Shown here: one piece after another, positions 19,808 to 60,505 of the stretch
Layout of the letters: every line of letters begins with the position of its first letter
Numbering within the stretch: position 1 is the first letter of the stretch
Origin: Rhodohalobacter barkolensis
Lineage (GTDB): Bacteria > Bacteroidota > Rhodothermia > Balneolales > Balneolaceae
NCBI RefSeq assembly: GCF_002834295.1
Contig: NZ_PISP01000001.1
Location: forward strand, 1,612,001-1,676,000
Direction of reading: 5' to 3'
DNA length: 64,000 bases
Notes under the pieces: generated by a model
Seen by the model: the letters and a program-made list of their open reading frames with translations, nothing else
What the model was told of the DNA's origin: nothing
The model's database searches: none
Program-made: the position numbers and the translations under genes

Positions 19808-19926
19808 ATCCTGAGCCAGTAGTGACCGAAAAAGACAGGTCTTTCATCCCTTACATACACCGAACCGTTTAAAGAGTCTCCGTTCAGGTCAGGTAGATTG
19901 GGAAAGCCTTGAAGATTTTGACCTAA
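19808..19926 (-). pseudogene. Metallophosphoesterase gene relic 1 (internal piece)
   Basis: On the minus strand the frame reads LQGFPNLPDLNGDSLNGSVY, then VRDERPVFFGHYWL, then breaks. This matches the region before the C-terminus of calcineurin-like metallophosphoesterases (V-F-F/I-G-H-Y-W) and is closely similar to the relics at 22218-22474 and 23429-23616. Both ends are missing, so it is non-functional. Confidence 0.65.
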
Positions 19927-21112: not shown

Positions 21113-21560
21113 CACTTCGAAGCAAATATGAGGAGTTCCAGGAACTATTCATTTCTTGATTATACAAAGCATTATGAGATATATGGATACCCATCTATAG
21201 ATCTGCGTGTCTACTGTTATCATGTTTTTGTTTGCAAATCTTCTACCTCTAACCCCATGTATTACTTCACGATCTCGTTAGATTCTAATGGCATCTTTGA
21301 TGGGAATGATTATTTTATACGGAGTCATGTACCGGGGTAGATTTATCATGTCTATGCAGTTGTGGAAAGGCGTGATACTGCAGCCACTTGCTAATGACAA
21401 TTACCCAGTGAATTGGATTGTCGTATAAAAAGCGTTCGTTATGGACAACCTCAAATCCAGAATGTTATACGACACATAATCTGACTGGATATAAAGAAAC
21501 GCAATTTCAGAATATTGCACGACAATCGAGACATCTTGAGATATGGCGTGTAATTAGATG

Positions 21561-22196
21561 TTATGCACCCAAAGTTTAAAAGAATTGATAAGCAATTGTA
21601 ATAAAAAGAGTAAGAAATGGAACCCTTCGAACTAAAAGTTGATACCAATACAATTTACATAAAAATCATCCGCTTTTTTGGGGTGCTAATGCTTGGATTT
21701 TTTATTGGGGCTATATCCTTCATATATAAGTATGAAGGGACTATCGATTGGATGAACTCATTCACAAGTATAGTCCTTAGTCTTGCTTTTGCTTTTTTCC
21801 CAGGTGTAGCCGGAAAAAAGGCTCTTGTCTTAAATGAGGACGGTATTTTTCTTAAAAACTATGGCTGGATTTGGGGTGAAAAAGAATATAATTGGTCCAC
21901 AGTTAAAGCTGTTGAAGTAAAAAAAGACCGAATTGAATTAACAAGAATTGTTGGATCGACTGACAAAATTAAATTTCCCATTCATACAAGGGAACAAATT
22001 GAAAACTTAAAGAAGTACCTCCAACAGCTATCCAGTTCAAAAGATATTGCTTTTAAACAATAATGTTGGGTGCATAACCCGCGCATTAAGTGGGACGTGC
22101 CTCGCCGTTGGCTGCTGGTTTCGATTTTATCAGTTTCCGTAGTATATGTTAAATCAAATTCGGCGCTATTTTGCACGCCCCTTATGCGCAATGTCG
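21561..22196 (+). mobile_element. Integron gene cassette (636 bp) with attC
   Basis: The unit is bounded by G^TT junctions. It opens with TTATGCACCC just after G21560 and ends at G22196, the G of GTTACCC. Inside are one reading frame (21617-22063) and an attC site. The sequence GTTATGCACCC at 21560-21570 is exactly inverted as GGGTGCATAAC at 22068-22078. This is the rule for integron cassettes, where the left core of the attC is complementary to the start of the same cassette. No integron integrase lies in the window, so this is a lone cassette (the arrangement called CALIN, or a cassette inserted at a secondary site). The preceding attC is no longer clearly recognisable and the following sequence is decayed. 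Confidence 0.85.
21617..22063 (+). CDS. Cassette-borne two-helix membrane protein, PH-like C-terminus
   Basis: This 148-residue protein has two membrane helices (about 19-38 and 48-68), then a cytoplasmic part with KKALVLNEDGIFLKNYGWIW, EKEYNWSTVKAVEVKKDRI and a final helix EQIENLKKYLQQLSS. The pattern (two helices, then a strand-rich domain with a W-x-x-V/I motif) resembles small bacterial PH-like membrane proteins such as the STM3941 group, often found as cassette cargo. Start: AAAAAGAGTAAGAA precedes the ATG. It is the only frame in the cassette and its stop lies 4 bases before the attC. Cassettes usually lack a promoter, so expression depends on outside transcription. Confidence 0.7.
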   Translation: MEPFELKVDTNTIYIKIIRFFGVLMLGFFIGAISFIYKYEGTIDWMNSFTSIVLSLAFAFFPGVAGKKALVLNEDGIFLKNYGWIWGEKEYNWSTVKAVEVKKDRIELTRIVGSTDKIKFPIHTREQIENLKKYLQQLSSSKDIAFKQ

Positions 22197-22203
22197 TTAC
22201 CCA
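22068..22203 (+). other. attC recombination site, Vibrio-repeat (VCR) style
   Basis: The left core GGGTGCATAAC (22068-22078) and right core GTTACCC (22196-22202) flank an imperfect palindrome of about 130 bp. The left arm GCGCATTAAGTGGGACGTGC (22081-22100) pairs with the right arm GCACGCCCCTTATGCGC (22173-22189): all 17 bases of the right arm match, with exactly three single-base bulges on the left (after GCGCAT, after AAG and after GGG). This GCGCAT-x-AAG-x-GGG-A-C layout is that of the V. cholerae repeats and gives the extrahelical bases needed to recognise the folded single strand. The remaining 72 bases form the variable terminal structure. Confidence 0.88.
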
Positions 22204-22217
22204 ATGCACCCTTTCGC

Positions 22218-22474
22218 TCAAACAAAAACTAACTTCCCATCCCTCAACTTCTCCTCACCGTCAAATCGATACGCGACTAGTTTCTCTCCTTTGGCCACGC
22301 TGTAGTCCAGGCAGCAGATGTTCTCTCTGTAGAGACTTGGATTTCCCTGAAGCCAGTAGTGGCCGAAAAAGACCGGGCGATCATCCCTTCCATACACCAA
22401 TCCGTTTAAAGATTCATCACTTCGGACAGGCAGATCGGGCAGACCATGGATGTTTCCGACCGCAAAAGAGTCAT
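22218..22474 (-). pseudogene. Metallophosphoesterase gene relic 2 (C-terminal part)
   Basis: The minus-strand frame reads NIHGLPDLPVRSDESLNGLV, then YGRDDRPVFFGHYW, then LYRENICCLDYSVAKGEKLV and ends KLRDGKLVFV at 22218. It is the complete C-terminus of a calcineurin-like metallophosphoesterase (FFGHYW and CLDYSVAKG...LVAYRFDGE). The metal-binding N-terminal half is absent, so it cannot be active. It begins just past the attC site and is one of three relics with the same orientation. Confidence 0.7.
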
Positions 22475-22742
22475 ACGCATAATTTTAAGAACTCTCCCAC
22501 CATTACACCCGATAGCAGTCCGTCTGTGAACATTTTTTGAATTAATGCCCCAAAGATGATAGCCCGGTGAGTCGCAGGGCAAAGGCAATGGTAAATTAAC
22601 GGTACATATAGATCATGAAAGGGCTTATATGAAGAAACTAAATAAACCCACAATATAGATTTGACTACAGAATGTTTTTGTTTTTTATACTCGCTCAATG
22701 AAGATTAATGAGTAGATTTATTTAAACCAAAAGAGTAATGTC

Positions 22743-23428: not shown

Positions 23429-23616
23429 TCACACATACACCAACTTCCCATCTCTCAACCGCTCCTCTCCATCAAACCGATACTCAACCAGCTTCCCTCC
23501 TTTGGCCACGCTATAGTCCAGGCAGCAGATGCTCTCTCTGTAGAGACTTGGATTGCCTCTGAGCCAGTTGTGACCGAAAAATACAGGCCGTTCATCCCTT
23601 CCATATACCGAACCGT
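23429..23616 (-). pseudogene. Metallophosphoesterase gene relic 3 (C-terminal part)
   Basis: The minus-strand frame SVYGRDERPVFFGHNWLRGN, then LYRESICCLDYSVAKGGKLV and RLRDGKLVYV is nearly the same C-terminus as relic 2. The sequence joined upstream of it (LSALEYRIIVENEPKIF and on) is unrelated, so it is a truncated copy fused to other DNA. The motif His-Tyr-Trp has become His-Asn-Trp. Confidence 0.65.
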
Positions 23617-23908
23617 GGTACTTACCCAAGTAGTGTGTCTGGGGGCCAACCAGAACGGCAGCAGCAAGGTAATTGCCAACGAACAAAACGCTGGAGAGTG
23701 AGGGCGCTGATAAGGTTTTTGTGAAAATCTTCGGTTCATTTTCAACTATTATTCGGTACTCTAATGCTGACAAAAAGATTTCATTCAAAAGATCCATAGG
23801 AATTTCCCTGATGCCGGTATCCAACTATCTCTTATACAGGAAGCGCTTCCAATCCGTTATATTCATAGAATTAAAAACAGAAAAGAAAAATTAAATGAGG
23901 AATCCGGT

Positions 23909-25714: not shown

Positions 25715-25732
25715 GAAGCCTTGGCGAAGGTG

Positions 25733-25806
25733 TGGGCCCAGCAGGACTTGAACCTGCGACCAATCGATTATGAGTCGACTGCTCTGACCAACTGAGCTAT
25801 GGGCCC
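25733..25806 (-). tRNA. tRNA-Met (CAU anticodon)
   Basis: On the minus strand the acceptor stem GGGCCCA/TGGGCCC, D arm AGCTCAGTTGGTCAGAGC, anticodon stem-loop with CTCATAA (anticodon CAT), and T arm GCAGGTTCAAGTCCTGC are all intact. The 3' CCA is not encoded (ACA follows). A CAU anticodon could also be tRNA-Ile2 modified by TilS; the GGGCCCA acceptor and general form favour elongator Met. A dedicated terminator follows. Confidence 0.93.
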
Positions 25807-29555: not shown

Positions 29556-29649
29556 TCAAGCTGCGAAATCCAAAGATCCGTTAAATCCGCGTTCCATGTT
29601 GAGTATGAATCTAAACACCCGTATCATGTGATCCACATACTTAACCATT

Positions 29650-29738
29650 AAGGTTGGGGGTGTCCCGAGAGTAACGAATCGGGACTGAGATCATACCCTG
29701 TGAACCTGAACCGGGTTATACCGGCGTAGGGAAACCGA
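29650..29738 (+). promoter_or_regulatory. TPP (thiamin pyrophosphate) riboswitch
   Basis: The THI-box landmarks appear in order: GGGGGTGTCCCGAG, then ACTGAGATCATACCC, then TGTGAACCTGAACCGGGTTA and TACCGGCGTAGGGAA. These are the conserved P2/P3 and P4/P5 regions that bind the pyrimidine and pyrophosphate parts of TPP. It lies 92 bp upstream of the TonB-receptor start and should switch that gene off when thiamin pyrophosphate is plentiful. Confidence 0.95.
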
Positions 29739-29794
29739 TCTGCAGTGCAGGCCATCACAAACAAATTCAGCTGATGATTGCCGCGCACTGTCCC

Positions 29795-59556: not shown

Positions 59557-60468
59557 ATGTCGGCGTTCGAATCGGAACTGAAGCACTATCTCCAGTTCAT
59601 CAAACTCGAAAAAGGTTTGACAGATAATTCGGCTGCTTCCTACGAGAATGATCTGCGTCGATATCTCACATTTGTTTCCCACACTTTGAAAATCAACGGG
59701 TTAGATGGTATAACTCTTCAACACATTGAGCAGTATCTTGAAGAGCTGACCGATCTTGAACTGGCCGTCAGTACCATAGCAAGAAACATCTCCAGCATTC
59801 GAAGTTTTCATGAATTTGTTGTTGTAGAAAAACTGGCTGAAGCAAACCCCGCAGAATTAATTGAGTTACCCAAAAAGGCCAAAAAGCTTCCTGAAGTATT
59901 AAATCCACAGGAAGTTGAAGCCATTATCGACCAGGCCGATCGGACCACAATGGCAGGAATCCGTGATGCTGCCATCATGGAAACCCTCTATGCAAGTGGA
60001 ATGAGGGTTAGTGAGCTAACAGACCTTGAGATGGATCGCCTTTTCTTTGAAATTGGATTTATTCGTGTGGTTGGAAAAGGGAATAAGGAGCGGCTCGTAC
60101 CCGTTGGTGAAATTGCTCAGCTCGCCATTGAACACTACATTGAAACGGCACGTAAAGAGTTCTTAAATCCCAAAAAACCGACGAAATCTGAAAATAAAAT
60201 CTTTTTAAATCAACGCGGTGGACCTTTAACCCGAATGAGTATCTGGAATATTGTGAACAAATACGCTCAAAAGGCGGGAATAGAAAAGAATGTCTATCCC
60301 CATATTTTTCGCCACTCCTTTGCCACACATCTTCTTGAAGGAGGTGCCGACCTCAGGGCTGTCCAGGAAATGCTGGGGCATACTTCAATTATTACCACTG
60401 AAATTTATACCCATGTAGATCGTTCTCTTCTGCATCAGGTTCACAAAGAATTTCACCCGCGCGCATAA
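59557..60468 (+). CDS. Tyrosine recombinase XerC/XerD
   Basis: This 303-residue site-specific recombinase resolves chromosome dimers at dif. It has the N-terminal SAM-like core-binding domain (FIKLEKGLTDNSAASYENDL) and the catalytic domain with Arg in YASGMRVSELTDLEMDRL, the Lys strand GFIRVVGKGNKERLVPVG, HIFRHSFATHLLEGGADLRA (His-x-x-Arg), QEMLGHTSIITTEIYTHV (His and the nucleophile Tyr). Whether it is XerC or XerD cannot be decided here. It is not an integron integrase: the extra IntI alpha-helix patch is absent. Confidence 0.95.
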   Translation: MSAFESELKHYLQFIKLEKGLTDNSAASYENDLRRYLTFVSHTLKINGLDGITLQHIEQYLEELTDLELAVSTIARNISSIRSFHEFVVVEKLAEANPAELIELPKKAKKLPEVLNPQEVEAIIDQADRTTMAGIRDAAIMETLYASGMRVSELTDLEMDRLFFEIGFIRVVGKGNKERLVPVGEIAQLAIEHYIETARKEFLNPKKPTKSENKIFLNQRGGPLTRMSIWNIVNKYAQKAGIEKNVYPHIFRHSFATHLLEGGADLRAVQEMLGHTSIITTEIYTHVDRSLLHQVHKEFHPRA

Positions 60469-60505
60469 CCTCAACGTATATTTTTTAAAAAAAACTGATC
60501 CAACA

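Follow-up and report, generated by a model that had tools for sequence, protein, structure and literature searches.

A lone gene cassette in Rhodohalobacter barkolensis and the integron system of the Balneolaceae

The 64-kb stretch of Rhodohalobacter barkolensis DNA analysed here (the window: G000:C1:1612001-1676000, from a genome of 3.6 Mb in seven contigs) almost certainly holds a genuine integron gene cassette, at 21561-22196, and this lone cassette belongs to an integron system that is the Balneolaceae's own. We consider it probable, going one step further, that the cassette is a SALIN of that system, a single attC site with its cassette and no integrase nearby, and that it was placed off target by the integron integrase, IntI. 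The initial annotation had read the DNA as that of a Balneolota-like genome, which is supported, and had proposed that a gene cassette with a real attC lies here; the inverted 11-base cores, the stem, the R' box and two covariance models bear it out.

The cassette and its attC site

As a mobile unit, the cassette comprises 636 bp of the plus strand (21561-22196), from one G|TT crossover to the other, and is marked by inverted cores at 21560-21570 and 22068-22078 and by R' at 22196. Its left boundary, GTTATGCACCC (21560-21570, +), includes the G|TTATGC crossover, and its reverse complement GGGTGCATAAC is found at 22068-22078 (+), where the R'' box GCATAAC is joined to a four-base outer extension, GGGT. 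The inversion between left boundary and R'' side runs unbroken for 13 bases, extending the GTTATGC and GCATAAC cores to 11-13 bases, and the right end reads GTTA. No further position in the whole 64-kb window comes within one mismatch of this pair, and about 5e-4 inverted partners of 11 bases would be expected by chance within 2 kb.

The attC recombination site (22072-22202, +) has an L'' arm at 22081-22100 (+; GCGCATTAAGTGGGACGTGC) with three single-base bulges (T, T, A) and an L' arm at 22173-22189 (+; GCACGCCCCTTATGCGC) without bulges. Folded as single-stranded DNA, either strand forms a stem of 17 bp (6+3+3+5) in which all three bulges lie on the 22081-22100 arm, just as the initial annotation had described the pairing; folding of the bottom strand, which it had put forward as a check, returns this bulged stem with an unexceptional fold energy (z -1.2, against -1.8 for the top strand). 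The R' box GTTACCC (22196-22202, +) fits the consensus GTTRRRY well for GTTA only, and the misfit of its tail, CCC, is what one would expect were target DNA to make up the last six bases. By itself, GTTACCC occurs six times on the plus strand of the window.

That the attC exceeds chance follows from the 11-base inverted partner together with two covariance models. One model (R2) was trained on 24 attC sites taken from further Balneolaceae genomes, with the source genome and two sites with identical arms left out; it gave a single match in the 64 kb, at 22072-22202 (40 bits, E 7e-8, a rough value after a short calibration, as is that of the next model), and no match at E 0.001 in eleven genomes of the Balneolaceae genera g19 and g20, which served as a negative control. 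The other (R3) was built from non-Balneolaceae loci only, with training sites chosen via R2, so that it is not wholly independent, and again had the attC as its sole match in the window (32.8 bits, E 1.2e-5). The covariance search suggested by the initial annotation is thus significant with both of these models of our own. A first model (R1), made from proteobacterial attC sites that are short and had their loops trimmed, had scored the site at 9.4 bits, a stem-only match ranked under chance hits; it proved too narrow, and R2 and R3 took its place. The weak R1 score, the modest fold z-score and the 9 of 200 dinucleotide-shuffled windows that equalled the site in our stem score alone are what one could cite for a chance inverted repeat or some other hairpin, such as a terminator or a REP-like element, but with two covariance models built without the site, an inverted boundary and the same attC unit standing beside integrases in relatives, such an origin is scarcely credible.

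The cassette carries a gene for a 148-aa protein (21617-22063, +), and the small membrane protein that had been proposed from the sequence remains our prediction: our best guess is a small membrane-anchored, perhaps PH-like product, with two predicted N-terminal transmembrane helices followed by a putative beta domain. The protein has a weak match to the EbsA-like family PF17255 (28.5 bits, with a cut-off of 25.9 in Pfam). A single-sequence structure model of low confidence (pLDDT 64) shows a beta domain after a pair of long N-terminal helices, and its best Foldseek matches are PH-like domains, weak (E 0.006 at best) and to be taken as a hint only. Of the 92 genomes of the family, 17, the source genome counted, have homologues of the gene; in G001 and G021 these are flanked by an attC site on each side, as is one in G036, and several in genus g3 stand at places with an attC that looks decayed by eye. 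The plasmid collection yielded no homologue, and the gene had no match among defence families.

The integrase and the attC sites of the family

The initial annotation had remarked that no integrase gene lies in the window and had advised a search of the genome for intI. An intact IntI of 320 aa is encoded on another contig (G000:C6:270659-271600). It scores 406 bits against TIGR02249 (cut-off 265), aligns over its full length with V. cholerae IntIA (2A3V; residues 9-318, E 9e-82), has the tyrosine-recombinase residues (A1 invariant columns) and carries a stretch, KYPGAESEFIWQYLFPSRYRRKEPRSGVRHRYH, that is absent from ordinary Xer recombinases. The array next to this intI opens with GTTATGCAACCC. 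In this native integron (G000:C6:270659-284000; L010/L011) the first cassette encodes a zinc-ribbon-like protein, later cassettes read by eye as HigBA-like and toxin-antitoxin-like pairs, and other genes, one of them for an ABC transporter, break up the array. The window has an XerC/XerD-like tyrosine recombinase gene (59557-60469, +), which falls under the IntI cut-off, and a scan of it with Rfam at the gathering threshold returned only a TPP riboswitch (29646-29749, +) and a tRNA-Met (25732-25806, -).

A tree of 52 integrases unites the Balneolaceae proteins in one clade (support 100/98) and places VchIntIA elsewhere on a long branch; a single row within the clade, L078, bears the label Chitinophagaceae, which is probably a naming matter. 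Integrases above the cut-off were found in 50 of the 92 family genomes and attC sites in 73. Two well-assembled genomes of the genus, G024 and G026, have 20 and 19 attC sites, respectively, with no intI found. The HxxR motif of the G004 IntI (L035:1495-2451) reads HTFCHSF, an R to C change, so that this integrase is probably inactive.

The attC of the window is of the type that stands beside intI in relatives. From TAAC to GTTA, its core is identical at 115 of 125 positions (92%) to an intI-linked array site of G027, a genome of the same genus (L058:5358-5488), and at 110 of 126 (87%) to one of Aliifodinibius salipaludis (L080:239-370); sites in G026 and G046 are identical at 111 and 112 of 125 positions (89-90%). 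Conservation, which the initial annotation had asked for in related strains, is seen for the attC unit in these relatives. In the G027 and A. salipaludis arrays the 60 bp on each side of the attC align at chance level only, and a conserved core between unrelated flanks means that the conserved unit is exactly the recombination site. No match to the attC pattern was found in viral contigs.

These observations bear on a suggestion of the initial annotation that the site, being styled like the Vibrio repeats, would point either to exchange with Vibrio-like marine bacteria or to an integron of the phylum's own. The bulged stem of the Vibrio repeats does have a layout that resembles the attC of the window, and the two share a length of more than 100 bases and bulges on one arm, with integrases that are homologous over their full length. 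The likeness to the Vibrio repeats is one of layout, however, and the x-AAG-x-GGG-A-C arrangement is common to attC sites of many phyla (e.g., Geobacter). Balneolaceae hold the nearest attC sites, the source-genome IntI belongs to the Balneolaceae clade, apart from VchIntIA of the V. cholerae superintegron, and homologues of the cassette gene are spread across the Balneolaceae, with none in the plasmid collection. Recent cassette exchange with Vibrio-like bacteria, or an integron derived from Vibrio, is accordingly very improbable, and the layout loses its value as a pointer to it; the other half of the suggestion, an integron of the phylum's own, is what the integrase clade and the nearest attC sites support.

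Arrival of the cassette

Having one attC only, the lone cassette is a SALIN and not a CALIN, a term that requires two or more attC sites next to one another and no intI; R2, run with filters off, found no second attC within 19.7-25.3 kb of the window. Of the pair of origins offered in the initial annotation, a CALIN or a secondary-site insertion, the first is thereby set aside and the second stays a live option. SALINs and CALINs are described as attC sites without an integrase (PMC12690207, PMC9024848, PMC8618304), and among the hypotheses published for such orphan sites is off-target insertion by an IntI located elsewhere in the genome (PMC8618304, citing Cury et al.). Our case is like these in its attC and cassette with no intI nearby, and it differs in its single attC, in its Balneolaceae host with an intact IntI of its own, and in being one of about ten such loci.

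The simplest reading, we infer, is insertion in trans at a non-att GTT. The attC of a circular cassette would fold on the bottom strand, and IntI supplied in trans would recombine it with such a GTT in intergenic DNA (...TTAGATG|TTACCC...); the uninterrupted site before insertion would read TTAGATG|TTACCCAATGCACCC, and the cassette would stay at the insertion point after integration. The cassette is probably still excisable, and its attC can offer further cassettes a place to dock. A search for the cassette flanks across the rest of the genus (27 genomes) brought no empty site to light, since the flanks are absent from these genomes; the matches were to the pseudogene fragment and the attC only.

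With no empty site found, an array relic has to be weighed, as a small array since stripped of all attC sites but this one would look alike. The cassette would then be the last survivor of an array (a CALIN, or an integron moved through rearrangement) that has otherwise lost its attC sites and boundaries to decay or deletion. Pseudogene fragments on the cassette flanks would suit such a past, as would the grouping of other dispersed sites of the source genome in two to four, a diverged attC-like start, GTATAAAAAGCGTT, read by eye at about 21424, and the decayed-looking attC sites beside some of the gene's homologues in genus g3. With its filters off, however, the full model detects no further attC in 19.7-25.3 kb, the right-hand R' tail CCC misfits GTTRRRY, and the extended complement TGGGTAAC, which a former right-hand cassette would need, was not found on the plus strand downstream. 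We therefore regard a relic as rather unlikely, though well worth keeping in mind, and prefer off-target insertion by IntI.

Around the cassette, the 3' part of a metallophosphatase-like gene recurs in partial copies with broken frames. The pseudogene fragment on the host flank (22218-22540, -) has a weak PRK00166 match; the others lie at 23429-23824 (160 of 189 positions identical; repeat D1) and at 19814-19918, with figures of 84% and 76%.

Off-target insertion would place the cassette close to the attG insertions that Loot et al. 2024 (Nat Microbiol 9:228, as cited in PMC12444791 and PMC12901181) reportedly obtained by experiment in E. coli. In both cases a cassette sits at a GTT site that is neither attI nor attC; theirs are experimental, whereas ours would be a natural case, reconstructed without an empty site.

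Dispersed sites and cassette exchange

The source genome has 20 attC sites at E 0.001 or better (R2), and a closer scan adds at least one, at C1:784.7 kb, bringing the total to at least 21, most of them distant from intI. The C6 array holds only five or six; outside it, cassettes stand at about ten places. Sites beyond the array lie at 485-487, 516-517, 785 and 1634 kb of C1 (the last being that of the window), at 172.6, 394-397 and 527 kb of C2, at 533-534 kb of C3 and at the ends of C7, and those at or near contig ends may be one array split by assembly. By comparison, 14 of the 16 sites of G030, which is assembled as one contig, form one array adjoining intI at 1000.6 kb, the other two being singles, and 34 of the 37 sites of G036 are in one array. 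Dispersal thus differs between members of the family, with the source genome at the scattered end.

Sedentary chromosomal integrons are known to have lineage-specific attC sites (PMC8352920; Balneolaceae are outside the taxa modelled there), and a complete integron has been reported in Salinibacter ruber M1 (PMC9024848). The Balneolaceae system is like these in its lineage-typical attC, in an intI with an adjacent array and in cassette genes that are mostly uncharacterised or of toxin-antitoxin type; it departs from sedentary chromosomal integrons in that most attC sites of the source genome are away from intI.

A second lone cassette of the source genome, at C2:172577, consists of a DUF433/DUF5615 (PIN-like) pair and an attC. 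Copies of it in G001, G026 and G009, in other contexts, start exactly at the base that follows G|TT (L205:4935), which counts in favour of our preferred reading. Its left flank is present in G001, and both flanks are present in G003. We considered G003 as an empty site and rejected it, as the equivalent place is occupied by another stretch, of toxin-antitoxin type, that ends like an attC (read by eye; R2 gave no match there) and an identical right junction, GTTAAGTATCA. Comparison of G003:C156:1-1400 (L247) with L205 therefore sets side by side differing cassette-like stretches of two species at one lone site with a shared right junction, and orphan sites seem to exchange cassettes.

The inversion between left end and R'' extends well beyond the seven-base core, to 11-12 bp, in 39 Balneolaceae cassettes: identity at positions 8-12 is 0.92, 0.82, 0.85, 0.56 and 0.49, against 0.24-0.35 in a mismatched-cassette control. 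The idea that such ends are unique to the Balneolaceae is weakened by 30 cassettes of other phyla, selected by a match at six of the seven core bases, in which the excess fades past position 9 (0.80, 0.67, 0.40), an inversion of about 9 bp. The extended inverted end is thus general and about two bases longer in the Balneolaceae; in a limited search we did not find it described in the literature.

A wider proposal is that of a "distributed" integron in the Balneolaceae, and we offer it tentatively, as a speculation that as a whole may well prove wrong: the integrase would regularly seed single cassettes at chromosomal GTT sites, orphan attC sites would be docking points that swap cassettes, making the pool genome-wide instead of one array, and the extended ends of 11-12 bp would belong to a longer basal stem used by the Balneolaceae IntI clade.

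Integron cassettes, CALINs, SALINs and off-target insertion are already known as kinds. A limited search found no paper that combines "integron" with Balneolaceae or Balneolota, and other papers or supplementary tables may do so. What the present analysis adds is the placing of a native, widespread integron system in the Balneolaceae, which makes the idea of exchange with Vibrio unnecessary. Since one genome of the family has an intact integrase and, at some ten places beyond its array, further cassettes, natural insertion of the attG type becomes testable by the comparison of strains.
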